A stretch of 64,000 bases of DNA from Chromatiales bacterium (GCA_016789845.1 JAEUQA010000086.1:62001-126000), one strand, 5' to 3'. Positions 8,178 to 17,853 are shown, counted from the stretch's first letter. Notes: generated by a model not told the origin, from the sequence alone. Numbers and translations: made by a program.

Positions 8178-8264
8178 GCCCGGGTGGCGAAACTGGTAGA
8201 CGCTGCGGACTTAAAATCCGTTGGCCGCAAGGCCGTGCCGGTTCAAGTCCGGCCCTGGGCACCA
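8178..8264 (+). tRNA. leuZ: tRNA-Leu (TAA), used as integration site
   Basis: An 87-base class II tRNA. The acceptor GCCCGGG pairs with CCTGGGC (one G-T), the anticodon loop CTTAAAA gives anticodon TAA, the variable arm is GGCCGCAAGGCC, and CCA is encoded. The 3' half is repeated at 17799-17853, which marks this gene as the attachment site of the island on its right. If the crossover fell in the anticodon stem-loop, this intact copy is a hybrid of a chromosomal 5' half and an island-supplied 3' half. Confidence 0.97.
8210..8262 (+). repeat. attL: 3' half of tRNA-Leu
   Basis: Two blocks are shared with the right end. A 14-base block covers the anticodon loop (8210-8223, equal to 17799-17812). 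A 29-base block covers the T-arm and acceptor (8234-8262, equal to 17825-17853). The variable arm between the blocks differs in sequence and length. Confidence 0.9.
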
Positions 8265-8322
8265 AGCGCAGCAAGGGTTTCAGCCGTTTTCCCCATTTCG
8301 GCACCCGCCTCAAAATTGCCAG

Positions 8323-8341
8323 CGTGTACAAACCGTGTACA
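8323..8341 (+). repeat. paired CGTGTACA repeats, left end
   Basis: Two copies of CGTGTACA at 8323-8330 and 8334-8341, one helical turn (11 bases) apart and about 60 bases inside the left attachment site. The same pair with the same spacing occurs at the right end, so these are good candidates for integrase arm-type binding sites (inference). Confidence 0.6.
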
Positions 8342-8377
8342 GTCAGACGCAAGCGGCCACCTGATGCCGCAAAAGCA

Positions 8378-8409
8378 AACGCCCCGGAGGCGGTAACCCC
8401 CGAGGCGTT
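8378..8409 (+). repeat. inverted repeat upstream of the integrase
   Basis: AACGCCCCGG (8378-8387) and CCGAGGCGTT (8400-8409) form a 10-base inverted repeat with one mismatch and a 12-base loop. It is not followed by a T-run. It could be a terminator-like structure that shields the island from tRNA transcription, or a protein-binding site. Confidence 0.45.
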
Positions 8410-8518
8410 CTGACCACCACCGACCTGATGAGAGGTGCGGCATGGCTGACCACGATTCTGTCCCGATCCCGGCCCCACGGCAACGCTCCGTCCAGCAGAC
8501 CTGCAGGAGGGCGGCGTA

Positions 8519-9598
8519 ATGGCCACGATCCTGAAGCTCGCCCGCAAGAACGGCACCAGCAAGTACCGGGCGCTGATCCGCCGCCAGGGCCACCCCGTAG
8601 CCAGCCGCGTGTTCCGCACGAAGAAGGAGGCAGACGAGTGGGTGCGGAAGATTGAAGGCGACCTGGACCAGCTGGATGACCTCCCCGGCGTCGAGGCCCG
8701 GCGCCGCACGCTCGCCCAGGCCATCGAAGGCTACATGCTCGAGTACCAGGGGCAGGACAGCGCCCGCGTCGGCCGTCTCGCCTGGTGGAAGGACAACTAC
8801 GGCGACCGTCGCCTTTCCACGATCAACCAGGCCACGATCAAAGAGGCGCTGAAGAAGCTGGGCAAGAGCCGCACCCGGAAGGCCGCCGGCGCCGGGGAGG
8901 CCGACAGCGAGGACAAGGTAGCCCAGGGGCGCAGCGCCGCCACCCTCAACCGGCACCAGGCCGCCATCGCCGTCGTCCTCAAGTGGGCCATCGAGGAAAG
9001 GTGGATCACGAAGAACCCGGCGCTGCAGATCAGCCGGCAGAAGGAGCCGGGCGGTCGCGTCCGGTTCCTGTCGGAGGAGGAGCGCAACCGGTTGCTCGCC
9101 GCCTGCGCGGCATCCGAGTGGCCCGACCTGCTGCTGTTCGTGAAGATCGCCCTGTCCACCGGCGCTCGCCTGGGCGAGATCCAGGGGCTGCGCTGGAGCG
9201 ACCTCGACCTCAAGAAGGGGCTGGCCCACCTACGGACGTCCAAGAGCGGTGAGCCGAGAATGCTGCCGCTGATAGATCCCATCCGAGACGCCCTGGACGC
9301 AAAGCCACGCCCCATAGACCGCGGGCTGATCTTCCGCTCACCGCATGCGGCTGATCGCCCGTTCAACTTCCGGCCCCATTGGGAGCGGGCCGTCACTGCT
9401 GCAGAACTCGGGAACTTCCGGTTTCACGACCTGCGCCACTCCTGCGCGTCCTACCTGGCCATGAACGGTGCCAGCCTGCTCGAGATCGCGGACGTGCTCG
9501 GCCACAAGACTCTTGCGATGGTGAAGCGGTACAGCCACCTGAGCACCGCGCACAAGCAGAACCTGGTCGCCCGCACGTTCAAGGGCATGGTGGAGTAG
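8519..9598 (+). CDS. int: tyrosine recombinase / phage-type integrase
   Basis: A 359-residue site-specific recombinase that should integrate and excise the island at tRNA-Leu. The N-terminal arm-binding region (about 1-60; KYRALIRRQGHPVASRVFRT) and the SAM-like core-binding domain (about 65-170) precede the catalytic domain. Catalytic residues are visible: Arg in STGARLGEIQGLRW, His and Arg in FHDLRHSCASYLA, His in DVLGHKTLAMVKRY, and the nucleophile Tyr in RYSHLS. The ATG at 8519 is preceded by a GGAGG-rich ribosome site. It sits next to the tRNA it targets, the usual arrangement. Confidence 0.95.
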   Translation: MATILKLARKNGTSKYRALIRRQGHPVASRVFRTKKEADEWVRKIEGDLDQLDDLPGVEARRRTLAQAIEGYMLEYQGQDSARVGRLAWWKDNYGDRRLSTINQATIKEALKKLGKSRTRKAAGAGEADSEDKVAQGRSAATLNRHQAAIAVVLKWAIEERWITKNPALQISRQKEPGGRVRFLSEEERNRLLAACAASEWPDLLLFVKIALSTGARLGEIQGLRWSDLDLKKGLAHLRTSKSGEPRMLPLIDPIRDALDAKPRPIDRGLIFRSPHAADRPFNFRPHWERAVTAAELGNFRFHDLRHSCASYLAMNGASLLEIADVLGHKTLAMVKRYSHLSTAHKQNLVARTFKGMVE

Positions 9599-9603
9599 GG
9601 GCC

Positions 9604-10242
9604 ATGCCGGCGTGGCAGCGACCCAACTGGACCGATCCCAAAGCTCATCAGGAGGCGCTCGAGGGCCTGCCGTTGTCGCAATGGCGCTGGCAGTGGATCC
9701 GGCGGCATGCCGACTACGAGCGAGACTTCAACGGGCTGACGGGTGCCGCTCTTAAGCCCGCCGGGCCCTGCAGTGAATTGCGGCTCAAGAAGGCCGGCGG
9801 ACTTCGGGAAAAGTACGGCCTCGAGTGGCTACCGGATCCGGCTGTCGATTGGGTGCCCCCTGACGTCACTGGCCGGCCGACTGTCGACGTGCACGTCACG
9901 CTCGACCTGGACCGGGTACAAGCCCAGCACGATGACGGCTACGCCATCCTGGCTGTGGATCTCACCCGGACCGAGAGCGACATCACCGAGAGCGTCAAGC
10001 GGCTGGTGCTCAACGAGAAGGCGATGCAAGAGATCGCGGAGCCTCCTCGCCAGCGCAACGAGTGGGTCACCTACGCCCGCGTCCTCGATGCTGACGCAAC
10101 TGGCGCAACAGCGAAGGCGATAGCTGATCACATCTCCAAAGACCCGATCAGGGCGAAGGTGGTCACAGAGAGCGACGTCCGGACTTGGCTGAAGCGCGGC
10201 CTCGAACTCCAACGGGCAGCTATCGCCACATCAAGAAAATAG
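9604..10242 (+). CDS. DUF6499-like island protein, possible regulator
   Basis: A 212-residue soluble protein starting at ATG 9604, five bases after the integrase stop. The first 45 residues (PNWTDPKAHQEALEG ... QWRWQWIRRHADYERDF) resemble the small DUF6499 'transcriptional regulator-like' domain, as I recall that family. The rest (VDVHVTLDLDRVQAQHDDGY and onward) is not recognised. There are no membrane segments or signal peptide. Its place right after the integrase suggests control of integration or of the replication genes, but nothing in the sequence proves it. Confidence 0.6.
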   Translation: MPAWQRPNWTDPKAHQEALEGLPLSQWRWQWIRRHADYERDFNGLTGAALKPAGPCSELRLKKAGGLREKYGLEWLPDPAVDWVPPDVTGRPTVDVHVTLDLDRVQAQHDDGYAILAVDLTRTESDITESVKRLVLNEKAMQEIAEPPRQRNEWVTYARVLDADATGATAKAIADHISKDPIRAKVVTESDVRTWLKRGLELQRAAIATSRK

Positions 10243-10257
10243 ACTCCCGGTCTATTT
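10237..10257 (+). terminator. small perfect hairpin at the end of the DUF6499-like gene
   Basis: AAATAGAC (10237-10244) and GTCTATTT (10250-10257) form a perfect 8-base inverted repeat with a 5-base TCCCG loop, overlapping the stop codon. The TATTT at the 3' side is a weak T-tract. It may be a terminator or an operator for the genes that follow. Confidence 0.35.
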
Positions 10258-10338
10258 GGGTTTACCCGCCGCCACGACTGTCCCCTAATCCACGCCAACG
10301 GGCACCCGAGCCCGCGGCAACGTGGAAGGGAGACGACG

Positions 10339-10614
10339 ATGACTGGCGCGATGAGCGGCCCCTGGAAGGGCCTGTCGGAGTTCAGCGACTCCGAGCAAAA
10401 CAAGCTGCGATTCATCCTCAGGGATGCGGCCAACAACGGCATCGTCGAGGCCGGCGTGGCCTGCAAGTATGGGCGCGAATGGCGGGTCAACACTGATCGG
10501 TTGCCCGACTACCTCCTCGAGCGCACCCGGCTGGCGTTACACGGCCATGCCTCTCAGCCGCCGCGCAACCGGCGCCGAGGCGATGCCCAGCGGACCTCGA
10601 GGTCGGCCACCTGA
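10339..10614 (+). CDS. small island protein of unknown function
   Basis: A 91-residue protein with a good ribosome site (GGAAGGGAG) about 8 bases before the ATG at 10339. The core SDSEQNKLRFILRDAANNGI ... CKYGREWRVNTDRLPDYLLE looks like a compact DNA-binding or excisionase-size fold, with a basic arginine-rich tail. I do not recognise the family. The next gene starts 6 bases downstream, so these genes probably form one operon ending with the AAA helicase. Confidence 0.5.
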   Translation: MTGAMSGPWKGLSEFSDSEQNKLRFILRDAANNGIVEAGVACKYGREWRVNTDRLPDYLLERTRLALHGHASQPPRNRRRGDAQRTSRSAT

Positions 10615-10619
10615 ACCAC

Positions 10620-10997
10620 GTGAGCACCGTGACCCGCCGACGGCTGCCGCCATTCGGGCGGGAATACCTGATCCGTCGCCAGGCACCCGGCTACCTGAAC
10701 CAGGGCCCCCGCGTGGCCATCGGCGCCCGCGCCTGGGAACTGGCCCGGGAGGCCGTGGCAATCCCGATCATGGTGCTGCCGCCAGATGAGGAACCCGCGA
10801 GCTTCGCCTGGCCGGTCGGCGGTGAGGCCGTCCTGCTCTTCGAAACTGGTGATCCGGATGATGAAGCCCTCGAGAGGCTGGCCCAGGCGCTCTTGGCTGA
10901 CGGCGCGGCGCTCGTCCACGCAATCCGGCGGTGCGATTTGCCCGGAAATCCGCCAGGCAGCCCGGGACGTGCTGGCCCGGCGTGGGTGCGGGCATGA
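10620..10997 (+). CDS. small island protein upstream of the helicase
   Basis: 125 residues from the GTG at 10620. The N-terminal part (RRRLPPFGREYLIRRQAPGY) followed by GPRVAIGARAWELARE resembles small proteins I associate with phage and plasmid replication modules, but I cannot assign a function. The stop codon overlaps the start of the AAA protein in an ATGA (10994-10997), which argues for translational coupling and for the gene being real. Confidence 0.55.
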   Translation: MSTVTRRRLPPFGREYLIRRQAPGYLNQGPRVAIGARAWELAREAVAIPIMVLPPDEEPASFAWPVGGEAVLLFETGDPDDEALERLAQALLADGAALVHAIRRCDLPGNPPGSPGRAGPAWVRA

Positions 10998-12175
10998 GCG
11001 CGAACGGCATCGGTACACTGAAAGAACTCGACCGGAAGTATGGGCCGGCGCCCGGGCGCTCGGCAGTGCATCCAGTAACGCTGGATCCCGACGCCGCCCG
11101 GGTGGGTGCCGAGACCTTCACGACCCCGCAGCCGGCGCCCGAGTTCATCCACGAGGGCTTCATCCCGAATGATGTCGGCGGGATCATTGGCGCCGGCGGT
11201 GTCAGCAAGACCACCCTCGCGCTAAACATTGCGTGCGGGACGATTCTTGGCGGCTCACTCTTCGGCCGTCGCGTGCTGCGGCCGGGCGGCGTCCTGTTCG
11301 TGACTGCCGAGGACGGCCTGGCCCGGATGCGCTACCGGCTGCATGGCATCGGCCGGGATGGCTACCTGACACCAGACGAGTGCGAGCAGATTGGCGCCGG
11401 CCTATTTATCGAGGATCTCAGCGACCGGGATCCGCAGCTGGTCAAGCTCGATGACCGCGGCAACCTGGAGGAGACGCCGCTGGTCGACGCGCTAATCGCC
11501 GCCTACGGACCCCTCGGCCTCTCCTTGGTGATCATGGACCCGTTCGTCAGCTTCGGGCCCGGCGAACGCCTGGTGAATGACGGGGAGCAGTCTGTCATCC
11601 GGGCCGCCCGCCGGATCCGCAAGGGTCTTAGCTGCCCGGTGCTGTTCCTGGTGCACACGGGCAAGGCGAACGCCCGGGAGCAGCGAGTTGATCAGTACGC
11701 CTTCCGTGGCGGCTCCGCGCTCGCAGACGGTCTGCGCTTCGTCTACATCCTCGACAAGGCCGACGGCGTGACCCTGCCCGTCGGGATCGACGCCCGAGAT
11801 GCTGCCGATGGCAAGGTCTTCAGGTTGACGCAAGCGAAGATCACCGACGCCGCGCCTTGGGCGGAGCCGCTCTGGCTGATCCGGACGGGCTTCCGGTTCA
11901 TAGACCAGCCCATCACCCGCCAGTCCGATGACGAGCGCCAGGAGGCGCAGGTGGCAGCCGTGGTGGAGTTCCTGCGGCAGGAGGCCAAGGGCAACGTGCG
12001 CCACTCGCTGACCAGCCTGGAGGCAGCCCGGGATCGCATTCCCGGGAAACTGAGCCGCGCCGGCCTGCGAGACACAGTGCATCGCGCCACCCAAACCCAT
12101 CGGATCGTCGAGCGCGATCTGCCAGAAGGCGAGCGGGTGGGGGCCCGCAAGACCTACCTGGAACCTGGCGCATGA
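10994..12175 (+). CDS. RepA-like AAA ATPase (replicative helicase type)
   Basis: A 393-residue RecA-fold ATPase of the AAA_25 / plasmid RepA type, a family that includes the hexameric helicase of RSF1010. The P-loop is IGAGGVSKTTLAL (around residue 60) with Ser in place of the last Gly of the classical motif. The Walker B strand is LSLVIMDPFVSF, and VLFLVHTGKANA plus the RGGSALADGLRF segment follow the RepA pattern. The C-terminal 90 residues form a winged-helix-like region. The ATG at 10994 overlaps the previous stop. Repeats that look like iterons begin 7 bases after the stop, so the protein probably unwinds the island's own origin. Confidence 0.8.
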   Translation: MSANGIGTLKELDRKYGPAPGRSAVHPVTLDPDAARVGAETFTTPQPAPEFIHEGFIPNDVGGIIGAGGVSKTTLALNIACGTILGGSLFGRRVLRPGGVLFVTAEDGLARMRYRLHGIGRDGYLTPDECEQIGAGLFIEDLSDRDPQLVKLDDRGNLEETPLVDALIAAYGPLGLSLVIMDPFVSFGPGERLVNDGEQSVIRAARRIRKGLSCPVLFLVHTGKANAREQRVDQYAFRGGSALADGLRFVYILDKADGVTLPVGIDARDAADGKVFRLTQAKITDAAPWAEPLWLIRTGFRFIDQPITRQSDDERQEAQVAAVVEFLRQEAKGNVRHSLTSLEAARDRIPGKLSRAGLRDTVHRATQTHRIVERDLPEGERVGARKTYLEPGA

Positions 12176-12181
12176 CGACCC

Positions 12182-12349
12182 ATCCCGCCATCCCGCCGCT
12201 ATTCCGCCGCAATTCCGCCACTCTTCCGAGGAAGGGGAGACGGATGGGCGGCTACTATCCCGCCGCCATCCTTCTCCCTATAGGCGGCGGCGGGATTCAG
12301 GGCAGATCCGGTCACGCGAGGGAAGGAGGGTATTCCGCCGAATCCCGCC
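12182..12349 (+). other. iteron-like repeat cluster, candidate replication origin
   Basis: The octamer ATYCCGCC occurs directly at 12182, 12190, 12201, 12212, 12257, 12332 and 12342, and inverted at 12289. Several steps are 10-11 bases. Within it ATCCCGCCGCC (12257-12267) and its complement (12286-12296) form a perfect 11-base inverted repeat. The cluster lies between the RepA-like helicase and a small helix-turn-helix gene. Iterons plus a hairpin next to a RepA-type helicase recall RSF1010-type origins. A short open frame across it (12172-12372) is repeat translation and is not proposed as a gene. Confidence 0.6.
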
Positions 12350-12368
12350 AGAGTGGGAGGGGCCGCCC

Positions 12369-12641
12369 GTGACCCGCTCCCGCATCGGCGGCACGCTCAA
12401 CGTCACGGCGATGAAGGCGCTCGCCGACAGCATCGAGGCCCGGCCGGTGCGCCCGGTAGACCGGCTCGACTCACTGCGTGAGGCCCGGCAGCTGATAGCC
12501 CAGGGCGCCAGCATCGTCGACGTCGCCGAAGCACTGAACGTCACAACCGCCGTTGTTCGGCAGCTGCTCGGTCCCGGTATGCGGAACAAGCGCATTAGCG
12601 GGACGCCGGAAACAGCCCAAAAAGGCCCGGAATTGCCATGA
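12369..12641 (+). CDS. small helix-turn-helix-like protein
   Basis: 90 residues from the GTG at 12369. Residues about 45-66 (ARQLIAQGASIVDVAEALNV and TTAVVRQLL) have the spacing of a resolvase- or Trp-repressor-like helix-turn-helix. The flanks are short and basic at the N-terminus. It directly follows the repeat cluster, so it could be the iteron-binding initiator or a copy-number regulator. That role is inferred from position only. Confidence 0.55.
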   Translation: MTRSRIGGTLNVTAMKALADSIEARPVRPVDRLDSLREARQLIAQGASIVDVAEALNVTTAVVRQLLGPGMRNKRISGTPETAQKGPELP

Positions 12642-12916
12642 AAACCGCCCGCCACGAGGACCATCACGGCGCCGGCCAGGCACTCGAGCTCGAGGTCGGC
12701 GGGCACCAGGACGCGCACGTTGCCGCGTGCCGAGACCTGCCTCAAGCCATTGGGCCAGCAAGGGTTCAGCACGAACGTGCAGCAGGTGACAGCAGGGGGA
12801 GGCACCTCAAGTCTCTTGGCAGGCTCACCGGGACCGACACCGGCAGGCAAATAAACACGCAGCCAAGATACGGTGAATTGCCAATTTCCCGACAACCACG
12901 ATTGTGGAGGACGCCC
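12642..12916 (+). other. gap with no convincing gene
   Basis: 275 bases between the small helix-turn-helix gene and the next CDS. Plus-strand frame 12638-12916 is open and its ATG overlaps the preceding stop (ATGA), but the product is Gly, Arg and His rich like a shadow frame. The minus strand also has an open frame here with a more protein-like stretch (TCCTFVLNPCWPNGLRQ). I cannot decide between a decayed gene on either strand and non-coding DNA. Confidence 0.4.
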
Positions 12917-13171
12917 ATGACTGCACGCTCTGAACCGATCAGCCCGACCGCTCGCCAGTCGCTCTTCACCGCGACATTCCACGCGGCCCAGGACCTGATC
13001 GCCACCTTCCCGGTGACTCCCGCCGACGTCGCCGTGGCGTACCTGGCGACCGGCTACGGCCTGATCACCGACCCGAAGGTCTGCAACCGGCAGATGGCCC
13101 GCCAGGTCCTGGTCGACCTCCTCGCGGCCTTCGATGCGGACGGCCCGGCGCCCCAGTCGGCACCGCACTGA
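12917..13171 (+). CDS. small island protein of unknown function
   Basis: 84 residues from the ATG at 12917, which has a GTGGAGG ribosome site about 6 bases upstream. The sequence SLFTATFHAAQDLIATFPVT ... VAVAYLATGYGLI ... RQMARQVLVDLLAAFDAD looks like a small all-helical protein. The frame could extend to 12638, but the added part looks non-coding. It precedes the capsid gene by about 220 bases. The family is not recognised. Confidence 0.5.
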   Translation: MTARSEPISPTARQSLFTATFHAAQDLIATFPVTPADVAVAYLATGYGLITDPKVCNRQMARQVLVDLLAAFDADGPAPQSAPH

Positions 13172-13343
13172 ACCACTACCCCACGAGTTCTCGGCGACCG
13201 GCTATGCTTGGTCCACGATCACGGTGCGCCCGCGGGACGTGGGATGTTCAAGGTGCCGGGACTCGACTGACAGGCTGACGGCGTCACGCCGGCGGCCTCG
13301 AGGGCAGAGGGACGCTTCCGCGGGACGCGGGCTGGTGTCGGCT

Positions 13344-13370
13344 GTGAAAAGTAGAGACGACCCTTTTCAC
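13344..13370 (+). promoter_or_regulatory. perfect inverted repeat in the capsid gene leader
   Basis: GTGAAAAG (13344-13351) and CTTTTCAC (13363-13370) form a perfect 8-base inverted repeat with an 11-base loop. It ends only 7 bases before the strong CAGGAGG ribosome site (13377-13383) of the capsid gene. It could be an operator, or an RNA hairpin that controls capsid translation. Confidence 0.5.
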
Positions 13371-13389
13371 CTACACCAGGAGGTTCGCC

Positions 13390-14556
13390 ATGCGCGACCC
13401 GAATCACGCTCCGATTATCGAAGCCGTCGACTCCCTCGGCAAAGACTGGGCTGCCTTCAAAGCCAGCCAGGCCGCCGAGCTCCGGACCCTCAGTCAGCGC
13501 CAGGACGAGCTCGAGGCTCGCGCCGAAAACATCCGCCCTGGTGCGAGCGGCAACGCCTCCGCTGCCGAGCGTAAGCAGTTCGCCGACTACCTGCGCACCG
13601 GCCAGGGGCTCAGCCGGAAGGACGTCACGACCGGCACGGCGAGCGGTGCGATGGTGCCGACAGTCATCGCTCAGGACATTGTCAGCAAGGCGCTGGCCCG
13701 TTCCCGCATCGGCGCCCTGGTGCGAAATGCGCAGGTCGAGAGCGGTGACTACTCGCGAATCCTTCGCGTGGGTGGCGCTACCTCGGGATGGTCGAGCGAG
13801 ACGGGCACGCGGTCGGCGACGACCGAGCCCAGCTATCGGGCCATCACGCCGACCTCTGGAGAGCTGTACAGCTACTACACCGTCTCGAACTGGGCCCTGC
13901 AGGATGCCTGGTTCGACCTGGCGAAAGAGTTGGAGGACGCGGTCACGGCGCAGGCAGCCAAGGACCTCGAGGCCGCCATCATCAGCGGCAACGGTGCCTC
14001 GCGTCCGACCGGAATGCTGGCATCGAACCCCACCAGCGCCGATGACAACGCCAGCCCACAGCGGGCCGCCGGCGTCTACGAGTACGTCGCATCAGGAGAG
14101 GCCGGCACCCTGAATCACCACCCGGCGAGCTCCCCGCAGCGGTATGGCGACGACAAGCTGCTCGATCTGTTCTTCACGCTCAAGCCGGAGTACCGGGCCA
14201 ATGCCACCTGGCTGATGGCCTCGCCGACGCTGGCAGCCGTGCGGAAGTTCAAGGACACGAACGGCCAGCCGGTGTGGCAGCCCAACATGGCCGCCGGCGT
14301 CGATCAGGGTGACGGGTTCTTGTTCGGCAAGCCGGTCGTCGTCTGCGAGTCGATGCCTGCCATCGGGAGCAACGCCTTCCCGATTGCGGTCGGCGACCTG
14401 CAGCAGGGCTACGAGCTCGTCCGCATTCACGGGCTCGACATCACGAGGGACGACGTGACTTCGCCCGGGAAAACAAAGTTTTTCGTCCGGGCGCGGTTCG
14501 GCGGCTGCGTGCTCGACAACGATGCAATAAAGTTCATCAAGTGCTCGGCGAGCTAG
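13390..14556 (+). CDS. HK97-type phage major capsid protein
   Basis: A 388-residue major capsid protein of the HK97 family. Residues 1-60 form a charged helical delta-like region (QAAELRTLSQRQDELEARAE). The core begins around residue 75 (GTASGAMVPTVIAQDIVSKA) and shows the N-arm and E-loop pattern (SGDYSRILRVGG, SETGTRSATTEPSYRAIT), the spine-helix region (ELEDAVTAQAAKDLEAAIISGNG...RPTGML) and a C-terminal A-domain (YRANATWLMASPTLAAVRKF, FLFGKPVVVCESMP). The length suits an unfused capsid protein. A strong AGGAGG site precedes the ATG at 13390. There is no protease, portal or terminase gene nearby, so the protein may build or alter a helper phage's capsid. Confidence 0.9.
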   Translation: MRDPNHAPIIEAVDSLGKDWAAFKASQAAELRTLSQRQDELEARAENIRPGASGNASAAERKQFADYLRTGQGLSRKDVTTGTASGAMVPTVIAQDIVSKALARSRIGALVRNAQVESGDYSRILRVGGATSGWSSETGTRSATTEPSYRAITPTSGELYSYYTVSNWALQDAWFDLAKELEDAVTAQAAKDLEAAIISGNGASRPTGMLASNPTSADDNASPQRAAGVYEYVASGEAGTLNHHPASSPQRYGDDKLLDLFFTLKPEYRANATWLMASPTLAAVRKFKDTNGQPVWQPNMAAGVDQGDGFLFGKPVVVCESMPAIGSNAFPIAVGDLQQGYELVRIHGLDITRDDVTSPGKTKFFVRARFGGCVLDNDAIKFIKCSAS

Positions 14557-14564
14557 AGCGAATC

Positions 14565-14638
14565 GGCGGCGCGGTTCCTGCTGGCTGCAAGGACCGCGCC
14601 GCCACTCGCCGCCTGAGTTGATGCAGGCAGGCGAGTGG
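14565..14638 (+). repeat. two adjacent strong hairpins downstream of the capsid gene
   Basis: The first hairpin is GGCGGCGCGGT (14565-14575) with ACCGCGCCGCC (14593-14603), an 11-base perfect stem. The second is CCACTCGCCGCCTG (14602-14615) with CAGGC-A-GGCGAGTGG (14624-14638), 14 pairs with one bulged A and an 8-base loop. Neither has a T-tract. A proper terminator follows at 14697, so these are extra structure. A packaging or recognition site is one possibility. Confidence 0.55.
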
Positions 14639-14696
14639 GATGCGTGCGGTCTCCCGAGAAAAGCACCGCGGCGCCGTCATCCCCGGCGCATTGGAA

Positions 14697-14723
14697 GCCC
14701 CGCTTTGGCGGGGCATCCTTTTT
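14697..14723 (+). terminator. rho-independent terminator
   Basis: GCCCCGC (14697-14703), loop TTTG, GCGGGGC (14708-14714), then ATCC and TTTTT (14719-14723). This is a textbook intrinsic terminator after the capsid gene. It separates the satellite core from the restriction-modification gene, which must have its own promoter. Confidence 0.85.
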
Positions 14724-14853
14724 GTGGCCTCGCAAGAGTGACCACTGGGCTCAGGCCCCACCAGAAAGCAAGCATTGAGAATGCCGTACCCAGGTCGCAA
14801 AGGTGAGATCGATAGGTATGATTCCCCGTCGACCGGGAGGGTAGGGGAGCCGC

Positions 14854-17658
14854 GTGCCGCTAAGCTGGAACGAGATCAAGGATCGGGCGCTACGCTTCTC
14901 GCGGGAATGGGAAGGGGATTCATCGGAGGACGCCGAGGCAAAGAGCTTCTGGGATGCGTTCTTCGACGTTTTCGGTGTCCCACGGCGCCGGGTGGCCAGC
15001 TTCGAGAATCCGGTTCGCAAGTCAGACGGTCAGGGTGGGTACATCGACCTGCTCTGGAAGGGCACGCTCGTCGTCGAGCACAAGTCCCGAGGGAAGAATC
15101 TGGATCGGGCCTATCACCAGGCCACGGACTACTTCTCGGGATTGAAGAACCGGGACCTGCCCCGCTTTGTGCTCGTCTCGGACTTTGCCCGATTCCGCCT
15201 CTACGACCTGGATGACAATGAGGTTCACGAGTTCCGCCTGGAGGAACTGCACAAAAACCTCAGATTCTTCGATTTTATCGCCGGCTACCAACGCCGAAGC
15301 TTTGCGGCGGAGGATCCGGTCAATATCAAAGCAGCGGAGAAGCTCGGCGAGTTGCACGACCAGCTGCGGGCGGCGGGTTACGTGGGGCACCCGTTGGAGG
15401 TGCTCCTGGTCCGGCTCCTCTTCTGTCTATTCGCCGACGACACCGGCATCTTCGAGACCGGCCAGCTGCGAGAGTATCTCGACCAGCGTACTGCCGAGGA
15501 CGGCTCCGATTTGGGCATGCACCTAGCCCAGCTGTTCCAGGTCTTGAATACCGCTCCTGATCAACGCCAATCGAGCCTTGACCAGCAGCTTGCAGCCTTC
15601 GCCTACATCAACGGCCGGCTGTTTCAGGAGTCGCTGCCGCTGGCTTCCTTCAATCGAGCCATGCGCGAGACGCTTCTGGACTGCTGCGCAGTGGACTGGA
15701 GCGGCATATCGCCCGCCATCTTCGGCTCCCTATTCCAATCGATTATGGATCCCGAGGCGCGGCGTAATCTGGGTGCTCACTACACGAGGGAGGTGAACAT
15801 CCTCAAAGCCCTGCAGCCCCTATTCCTGGATGCCTACCGCGCCGAGTTTGACCGTGTACGCCGCAGCCCAAAGCAGCTGCTGGAGTTCCAGGCAAAGTTG
15901 GCGAGTACCAAAGTGCTGGACCCAGCCTGCGGCTGCGGAAACTTCCTCGTCATCGCCTACCGGGAGCTGCGTCTCCTGGAATTGGAGGTGCTTCGGGAGA
16001 TCTACAAGAAGCGGGAGACAGGCTTTCTCAATGTCAGCGACATCGTGCGGGTAGATGTTGACCAGTTCTACGGTATCGAAATCGAAGAGTTCCCTGCACA
16101 GATCGCCCAGGTAGCCCTGTGGCTGACTGATCACCAGATGAACGGGCAGGTTTCCGAGGAATTCGGCCAGTATTTCGCCCGGCTGCCACTCGTGAAATCG
16201 CCGAATATCGTGCATGGGAATGCGCTACGCATGGATTGGAGTGCGATTGTGGGTCCGACCGCGCTCAACTTCATCGTTGGCAACCCGCCCTTTGTCGGAG
16301 CGATGGTCATGAGTGACCCTCAACGTGACGACATCGCGCAAGTGTTTGTGGGGGTGAAGGGTGGGGGCATTCTCGATTACGTCTCGGCTTGGTATGTGAA
16401 AGCGGCTCGCTATCTCCAGGGCGACTCTACTCGTGGCCGAATCCGTTGCGCCTTCGTTTCGACAAATTCTATCGCTCAAGGGGAGCAAGTTGGCGTTCTT
16501 TGGCGAGAGTTGAAGGCTCTTGGCGTTCACATTCACTTTGCACACCGCACGTTTCGTTGGAGTTCTGAGGCAACGGGTCGAGCGGCAGTCCATTGCGTCA
16601 TCATAGGTTTCGGCCTGTCTGAGCATCCGAGCCCTCTCCTATTCGACTATGAGACGCCCGATGGTGACGCAACTCAGGTGAGTGCAGGACACATCAATCC
16701 TTACTTGGTGGATGGTCCGGACGTTCTCGTCGAGAATCGCAGCGATCCAATGTGCCCAGTTCCCGGGATGCGGTTTGGCAGTATGCCGCGCGACGGTGGT
16801 CATCTGATTCTTTCCCCGGATGAGCGTGACCAGCTGCTCGCACGGGAGCCATCGGCTGCGCAGTGGGTCAGGCAATATACGGGCGCCGAGGAATTTCTGA
16901 ATGGCGGGAAGCGCTACTGCCTTTGGCTCGTCGGCGCGTCTCCAGATGCCGTTCGCGGCATACCATTCATCGTGGATCGACTCCAGAAGAACGCGCGGTA
17001 TCGACTTGCAAGTAAGGCGACGTCAACGCAAAAGGCGGCCGCACGTCCCGGGCTGTTTGTGCAGATCGCACAGCCGGAATCTGACTACTTACTCGTGCCT
17101 CGGGTTTCTTCCGAGCGGCGGCTATACCTGCCGATTGGTTTCATGCGGCAGGACGTAATCGCGAACGATCAGGTACTGACAGTGGCGGGTGCAACCCTGT
17201 ACCACTTCGGCGGCATTTCATCTGCGATGCACATGGCGTGGATGCGCTACACCTGCGGCCGCTTGGAGAGCCGATACCGCTACTCAAAGGATATCGTCTA
17301 CAACAACTTTCCCTGGCCCGACCCCACCGACAAGCAGCGACAGGCCATCGAGACGGCCTCGCAAGTGGTGCTCGATGCCCGGGCGGTTCACCCGGGCGCC
17401 ACGTTGGCCGATCTCTACGACCCTCTAACCATGCCGGTGGATCTTCTCAAGGCGCACCAGGCCCTGGATCGGGCTGTGGACCTGGCCTACGGCAAGACCA
17501 ATTTCCAGAGTGAGGCGGAGCGGGTGGCGTTTCTATTCGAACGCTACGAGGCGCTGACCTCGCTCCTTCCCAGCGGCCCGGCCAGGAAGAAGAAGCGCAA
17601 GACCAACAGCGGCCCGGCCAGGAAGAAGCGCAGGACCAGAAGGACCGCATCAGCGTGA
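14854..17658 (+). CDS. MmeI-like type IIL restriction-modification enzyme
   Basis: A single 934-residue protein combining nuclease, adenine methyltransferase and target-recognition functions, like MmeI (about 919 residues). The N-terminus MPLSWNEIKDRALRFSREWE closely follows MmeI as I remember it. The PD-ExK nuclease residues are Asp65 (YIDLLW), Glu75 and Lys77 (VVEHKSRGK), five positions from the MmeI residues. The methyltransferase has motif I DPACGCGNFL (356-365) and motif IV NPPF (477-480). The rest is the recognition domain, followed by a lysine-rich tail with two copies of SGPARKK. The ATG-less start region uses GTG at 14854. As island cargo it likely defends the host against other phages. 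Confidence 0.9.
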   Translation: MPLSWNEIKDRALRFSREWEGDSSEDAEAKSFWDAFFDVFGVPRRRVASFENPVRKSDGQGGYIDLLWKGTLVVEHKSRGKNLDRAYHQATDYFSGLKNRDLPRFVLVSDFARFRLYDLDDNEVHEFRLEELHKNLRFFDFIAGYQRRSFAAEDPVNIKAAEKLGELHDQLRAAGYVGHPLEVLLVRLLFCLFADDTGIFETGQLREYLDQRTAEDGSDLGMHLAQLFQVLNTAPDQRQSSLDQQLAAFAYINGRLFQESLPLASFNRAMRETLLDCCAVDWSGISPAIFGSLFQSIMDPEARRNLGAHYTREVNILKALQPLFLDAYRAEFDRVRRSPKQLLEFQAKLASTKVLDPACGCGNFLVIAYRELRLLELEVLREIYKKRETGFLNVSDIVRVDVDQFYGIEIEEFPAQIAQVALWLTDHQMNGQVSEEFGQYFARLPLVKSPNIVHGNALRMDWSAIVGPTALNFIVGNPPFVGAMVMSDPQRDDIAQVFVGVKGGGILDYVSAWYVKAARYLQGDSTRGRIRCAFVSTNSIAQGEQVGVLWRELKALGVHIHFAHRTFRWSSEATGRAAVHCVIIGFGLSEHPSPLLFDYETPDGDATQVSAGHINPYLVDGPDVLVENRSDPMCPVPGMRFGSMPRDGGHLILSPDERDQLLAREPSAAQWVRQYTGAEEFLNGGKRYCLWLVGASPDAVRGIPFIVDRLQKNARYRLASKATSTQKAAARPGLFVQIAQPESDYLLVPRVSSERRLYLPIGFMRQDVIANDQVLTVAGATLYHFGGISSAMHMAWMRYTCGRLESRYRYSKDIVYNNFPWPDPTDKQRQAIETASQVVLDARAVHPGATLADLYDPLTMPVDLLKAHQALDRAVDLAYGKTNFQSEAERVAFLFERYEALTSLLPSGPARKKKRKTNSGPARKKRRTRRTASA

Positions 17659-17661
17659 AAC

Positions 17662-17680
17662 CGTGTACAAAACGTGTACA
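17662..17680 (+). repeat. paired CGTGTACA repeats, right end
   Basis: CGTGTACA at 17662-17669 and 17673-17680, again 11 bases apart, right after the restriction-modification gene and about 120 bases before the right attachment site. It matches the left-end pair, which supports an integrase arm-site or recombination-accessory role. Confidence 0.6.
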
Positions 17681-17798
17681 CCACGGTGCCCCGACGGGCA
17701 CAAGTGAGCGCAGGCAGAGGGTGAGCAGGCGCCCGTAAGTCACTGATTCTGAGCAAGCCTCGTGGTGGGCGTGCGCGTGGGCCTGCGCAGAGTGGGGT

Positions 17799-17853
17799 CT
17801 TAAAATCCGTTGCCCCTGACAGGGCGTGCCGGTTCAAGTCCGGCCCTGGGCAC
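17799..17853 (+). repeat. attR: displaced tRNA-Leu 3' fragment
   Basis: The second copy of the tRNA-Leu 3' half has no 5' half, so it is not a gene. Its variable arm is built around CCCTGACAGGG rather than GGCCGCAAGGCC, yet it still forms a hairpin. Its 3' end reads CACA where the intact gene reads CACCA. The stop codon of the neighbouring minus-strand FHA gene lies within it. Confidence 0.9.

Follow-up and report, generated by a model that had tools for sequence, protein, structure and literature searches.

An island of about 9.6 kb at a tRNA-Leu(TAA) gene of a Chromatiales bacterium is probably a phage satellite that uses its single HK97-type major capsid protein (MCP) for capsid morphogenesis; we put the probability of this reading, drawn from the sequence, at roughly 0.6. 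The island is bounded by att sites, encodes an integrase and a Rep protein next to iterons, carries a lone capsid gene, and lies at a site that is empty in a congener. These features support an earlier note on this DNA, which had described a satellite-like island. All coordinates refer to the window, the whole 64-kb stretch that was analyzed.

8178 to 8264, + strand: complete tRNA-Leu(TAA) gene (ARAGORN; Rfam tRNA), with attL as its anticodon-to-3' half
8322 to 8342, + strand: paired GTGTAC repeats (8324 and 8335), candidate integrase arm sites picked out from the sequence
8519 to 9598, + strand: tyrosine integrase, 359 aa (PF00589, 2e-26)
9604 to 10242, + strand: regulator-like (DUF-type) protein with sub-threshold Trans_reg_dom and RovC_DNA-bd matches (PF20109, 1.8e-4; PF10074, 2.6e-3)
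10339 to 10614, + strand: small winged-helix or excisionase-like ORF, 91 aa, from a reading of the sequence, with no family at threshold
10620 to 10997, + strand: conserved small protein, 125 aa, common to the sister island L140 (39% identity to L140:2735-3100, E 4e-19)
10994 to 12175, + strand: RepA-like AAA_25 helicase (PF13481, 2e-24; PDB 1g8y, RepA of RSF1010, 3e-13)
12182 to 12349, no strand assigned: origin-like cluster of eight ATYCCGCC iterons, one of them inverted (sequence count)
12369 to 12641, + strand: small HTH protein, 90 aa (weak HTH_7 match, 3e-3)
12917 to 13171, + strand: 84-aa ORF, function unassigned (ORF call; no family match)
13390 to 14556, + strand: HK97-type MCP, 388 aa (PF05065, 4e-56; TIGR01554, 9e-73), with an AGGAGG ribosome site before the ATG
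14697 to 14724, + strand: terminator-like hairpin 3' of the capsid gene (7/7 G-C pairs and a T run; shuffled sequence gives such sites no less often)
14854 to 17658, + strand: MmeI-like type IIL restriction-modification enzyme, cargo (five MmeI Pfam domains; PADLOC type IIG, 1178 bits)
17793 to 17853, + strand: attR, a 61-bp tRNA-Leu 3' fragment (repeat alignment)

The tRNA-Leu(TAA) gene and the copy of its 3' half are spaced 9.59 kb apart, and attL and attR match in two ungapped blocks, 20/23 (87%) and 32/33 (97%). The earlier note had placed the island between two tRNA-Leu halves; the right copy is indeed a 3' fragment, but the left copy is a complete gene. A second GTGTAC pair, at 17663 and 17674, has the same 11-bp spacing as the left pair, and the pairs inside the two island ends are plausible candidates for integrase arm sites. 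In a congener genome (G007, locus L107), tRNA-Gly, tRNA-Cys and tRNA-Leu genes directly abut a homologue of the gene that flanks the island on the right. Thus, an empty site exists. The combination of an integrase with a specific att site in a discrete element within 8 to 15 kb is that of a PICI. Homologues of the integrase, with 33 to 45% identity, sit next to tRNA genes in further genomes from the same order.

All island genes lie on the positive strand. Family searches and the sequence count recovered the single-strand set named earlier, comprising the integrase, the RepA-like AAA helicase, iterons, regulators, the HK97 capsid gene and the MmeI-like gene. Half of the ATYCCGCC sites in the 64-kb window (8/16) fall within the 168 bp of the origin-like cluster, and approximately 9.5 would be expected by chance across all 64 kb. 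A Rep gene with adjacent iterons is also PICI-like gene content and would provide for replication; the Rep is of the AAA_25 RepA-like type, not a primase-rep. The restriction cargo proposed at the outset was borne out by an intact MmeI-type IIL gene with all five Pfam domains (N-terminal nuclease, helical, methyltransferase, TRD and C-terminal) and with DPACGCGNF, NPPF and D..EHK motifs. Its GC content is lower, at 57 to 60%. It is like the MmeI-type IIL enzymes in its full set of domains and unlike them in being the cargo of a mobile element.

The claim that the capsid gene is the only head gene also held. When the ORFs of 23 complete phage or prophage loci, all those of 70 aa or longer, were searched against the island by tblastn, the matches were only to the integrase and the MCP, and no trace of head, tail or lysis genes beyond the MCP, or of any other phage structural gene, was found; the positive control, prophage L044, returned TerL, portal, protease and MCP. 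A capsid homologue without a portal, protease or TerL is characteristic of a Ccm-type PICI. In contrast, cfPICIs have a complete head and packaging module (MCP, protease, portal, connectors and terminases), of which only the MCP was found here. No TerS was found in the tRNA-Leu island. Scans with Pfam, PHROGs and NCBIfam recognized neither a regulator of the Stl or AlpA type nor a divergent regulatory module. The island resembles P4-like satellites in its tRNA integration, its own replication and its defense cargo, but the same scans found neither an alpha-type primase-helicase nor Sid, Psu or Delta. A search of the host genome, which is 95% complete, for a resident prophage that might serve as helper or source found none: outside the island, this genome holds no second HK97-type capsid, no PF04860 portal, no PF03354 TerL and no GTA structural cluster. 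Thus, no HK97-type helper prophage is resident, and the helper would be external.

The MCP reading frame is intact over its 388 codons. An AlphaFold model made with 22 sequences (pLDDT 77) has a long N-terminal delta helix (residues 4 to 48) and the HK97 fold. The closest solved folds are those of the RcGTA capsid (PDB 6tb9; 2e-25) and the capsid of the cfPICI EcCI2 (PDB 9gyi; 8e-22). In sequence, too, RcGTA is the best solved match, at full length including the short N-terminus, with EcCI2 the nearest after it. Profile matches were 3.5e-114 to RcGTA and 1e-6 to the phi12 capsid of the SaPIbov5 procapsid entry. We take PDB 7rwz to be that entry. Unlike RcGTA, the island has no GTA cluster and is a mobile element with an integrase and Rep.

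Single-sequence searches with the capsid covered 147, 396 and 369 genomes, and the best capsid matches were again loci with one capsid gene and without a portal or protease. Five further lone-MCP loci in other genomes have integrase, Rep, TerS or defense genes as neighbors.

L011: AAA_25 Rep, MCP, Terminase_4 TerS
L024 (Povalibacter uvarum DSM 26723): D5/DUF5906 primase, MCP, PD-T7-4-like gene
L025: HTH_36 protein, integrase, MCP
L028: integrase, primase, MCP, tape-measure-like protein
L029: integrase, Terminase_4 TerS, MCP, KAP/PDC-S20

Exact 45-bp repeats bound L028 and L029, at tRNA-Pro and tRNA-Glu, respectively; neither an integrase nor clear ends were found for L011 and L024. Defense-like cargo is present in L024 (PD-T7-4) and in L029, where a KAP-family NTPase matching the candidate defense family PDC-S20 (L029:9832-11154) adjoins the lone capsid gene. 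The capsid-side slot may therefore be worth searching for defense genes. Three tandem tyrosine-recombinase ORFs, resembling a RIT transposon, lie inside the L028 island (L028:2417-5591). At L012:1782-4511, near tRNA-Glu/Ala and a contig end, a TerL-like gene is directly followed by an HK97 capsid gene, possibly a two-gene packaging island; this locus was excluded from the lone-capsid set as ambiguous.

A single origin of the island capsids was rejected by a tree of the capsid region following delta. The island MCPs are not monophyletic, with five changes on the tree, at least three of them forced by well-supported branches. Thus, the lone-capsid arrangement recurs. The MCP of the tRNA-Leu island groups with the L024 capsid. 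No relatives of the capsid or of Rep were found in scans of IMG/VR, and the capsid has no close relative against which selection on it could be gauged.

The delta region of the MCP is short, about 86 to 88 residues, and in six island capsids it spans 84 to 111 residues. Among the closest autonomous relatives (L030, L031 and L048 to L061) the range is 136 to 145, with the exception of L059 (113). The median over all 31 comparison capsids is 138, and the island capsids are shorter (Mann-Whitney p 0.002, with relatedness ignored). Judging by these lengths, we regard the shortening of delta in the MCP lineage as real. Some complete phages or GTA-like clusters have short delta regions too: L097 (82 residues), L102 (88) and L018 (45). 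A short delta is therefore not diagnostic and serves as supporting evidence only; it was dropped as a satellite hallmark when wider sampling gave these equally short examples. The L097 capsid is the closest relative of the L029 island capsid (55% identity). L097 is an IMG/VR contig with a portal, a protease and an MCP whose core follows directly on the short N-terminal stretch (L097:3745-4854), and would be a compact phage or GTA.

The earlier note had taken the minimal design to be new, and here it must be corrected. In SaPIbov5, helper heads are remodeled by Ccm, its one HK97-type capsid homologue (PMC5052747, PMC8569155); PmCI172 and EcCICFT073 possess capsid homologues as well (PMC6092414; reviewed in PMC6893505). 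Given the Ccm precedent, the lone-capsid design is not categorically new. The Ccm delta domain comprises residues 1 to 87 (87 residues), versus 1 to 128 in the phi12 capsid protein (PMC8569155). Ccm occupies pentamers only, turns prolate heads into small T=4 heads and forms no shells alone (PMC5052747, PMC8569155), and it blocks its helper phage (PMC5052747).

Cos-type SaPIs with Ccm are like the island in being att-bounded, in having integrase and replication genes and an HK97-type capsid homologue with a delta of ~87 to 88 residues, and in lacking a protease and portal. They differ in their Gram-positive host and in their replication and regulation genes. The likeness between Ccm and the island MCP is one of HK97 type and delta length, not of specific capsid sequence kinship, and the capsid action of Ccm is experimentally proven, whereas that of the island MCP is predicted. 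PmCI172 and EcCICFT073 are, like the island, proteobacterial tailed-phage satellites that encode a capsid-like protein but no full head module (PMC6092414, PMC6893505), but by description their integrases and regulators are different, and the role of their capsid genes is unproven. The HK97 fold and a delta shorter than in related autonomous capsids (88 versus 136 to 145 residues) are features of a Ccm-like redirector. The shortened delta domain fits such redirection while not diagnosing it, and by analogy the Ccm mode fits the island best.

The satellite would then work as follows. The integrase would insert and excise the island at tRNA-Leu(TAA), as its homology and the att sites suggest, and the RepA-like helicase and iterons would drive replication after excision. 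An outside helper phage would package the island, providing portal, protease, terminase, tail and lysis functions. As Ccm does in SaPIbov5, the lone MCP would join the helper procapsid, probably alongside the helper capsid protein; for this co-assembly into a mixed shell we consider the odds somewhat short of even. The MCP may shift assembly to small heads that hold ~10 kb and would shut out the helper genome. The MmeI-type enzyme, to judge by its family, is presumably defense cargo.

A sister island, L140, was found at tRNA-Leu(TAA) in another family of the same order. It is 8.1 kb in size, with an attR copy 8.1 kb away. The integrases of the two islands are 38% identical, and the L140 backbone includes a homologue of the 125-aa protein and an AAA_25 Rep. 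Its sole head gene encodes a 648-aa Peptidase_S78-Phage_capsid fusion (L140:4654-6600), with a Trypsin_2 protein downstream; portal, terminase and tail genes gave no match in this island. A search for the same gene order at tRNA-Leu in related genomes, suggested in the earlier note, has yielded an island whose backbone is similar but whose sole head gene differs.

The protease-capsid fusion of L140 suggests a more self-sufficient shell, and with it a different, unlikely division of labor, in which the island MCP makes up the entire shell and only portal, protease, terminase and tail come from a helper, the satellite standing between Ccm-type PICIs and cfPICIs. Full length and intact in fold according to the family match and the AlphaFold model, the MCP has a delta domain of its own, and cfPICIs employ their own capsid. 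However, a shell needs a matching portal, which the island lacks, and the nearest functional precedent, Ccm, is unable to substitute for the helper capsid protein (PMC5052747).

We consider it very unlikely that the island is a prophage eroded by deletion, in which an integrase, Rep and one capsid gene were left by chance. The MCP is homologous to the capsids of complete prophages (42% identity to that of L030), and the island lacks most other head genes outright. However, all listed genes are open, tblastn found no head or tail remnants, and similar-sized islands independently hold one capsid gene; one of these islands shares the att site but has a capsid of an unrelated type. Relatives with a complete prophage of these genes would have pointed to a deletion product; L140 and the other att-bounded islands instead have just one capsid gene each, with no complete prophage, which argues against a one-off deletion. 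That L140 has another sole head gene on a comparable backbone makes random prophage decay hard to invoke. Just as improbable is an unpackaged defense island on an integrative element, its capsid protein a dominant-negative poison of phage assembly: the MmeI cargo, the defense-like genes beside other lone capsids and the 10^3- to 10^4-fold cut in phi12 titer by Ccm alone (PMC5052747) speak for it, but the TerS-bearing islands L011 and L029 imply packaging, and a pure defense island needs no replication genes of its own.

The phage satellite with a capsid gene for morphogenesis, the reading we prefer, may represent a widespread and unrecognized class. Such a class would consist of tRNA-integrated satellites with one interchangeable capsid gene (a short-delta MCP, an MCP with TerS, or a protease-capsid fusion) on an integrase-RepA backbone, with each capsid matched to a helper, and it would link Ccm-type PICIs to cfPICIs. 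We advance this generalization tentatively and with more doubt than confidence. The open-access literature searched contained no recurrent proteobacterial series with an exchangeable capsid at one att site and with TerS or protease added or fused, which is weak evidence of absence; the recurrent proteobacterial lone-capsid series appears to be undescribed. If the class is real, evolution has arrived at the single capsid gene repeatedly, not just as a Staphylococcus curiosity, and this gene would offer a searchable satellite hallmark for bacteria without known satellites. The same-site pair, with a short-delta MCP in one island and a protease-capsid fusion in the other on similar backbones, makes retuning of helper head assembly by a one-gene swap testable, and bears on whether islands like these are intermediates on the way to full capsid-forming satellites.

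The family of the island integrase is also represented at a tRNA-Asn gene, where a member heads an element with TerS- and portal-like genes (L145:768-8835). Thus, one integrase family drives lone-capsid islands and fuller head modules alike.
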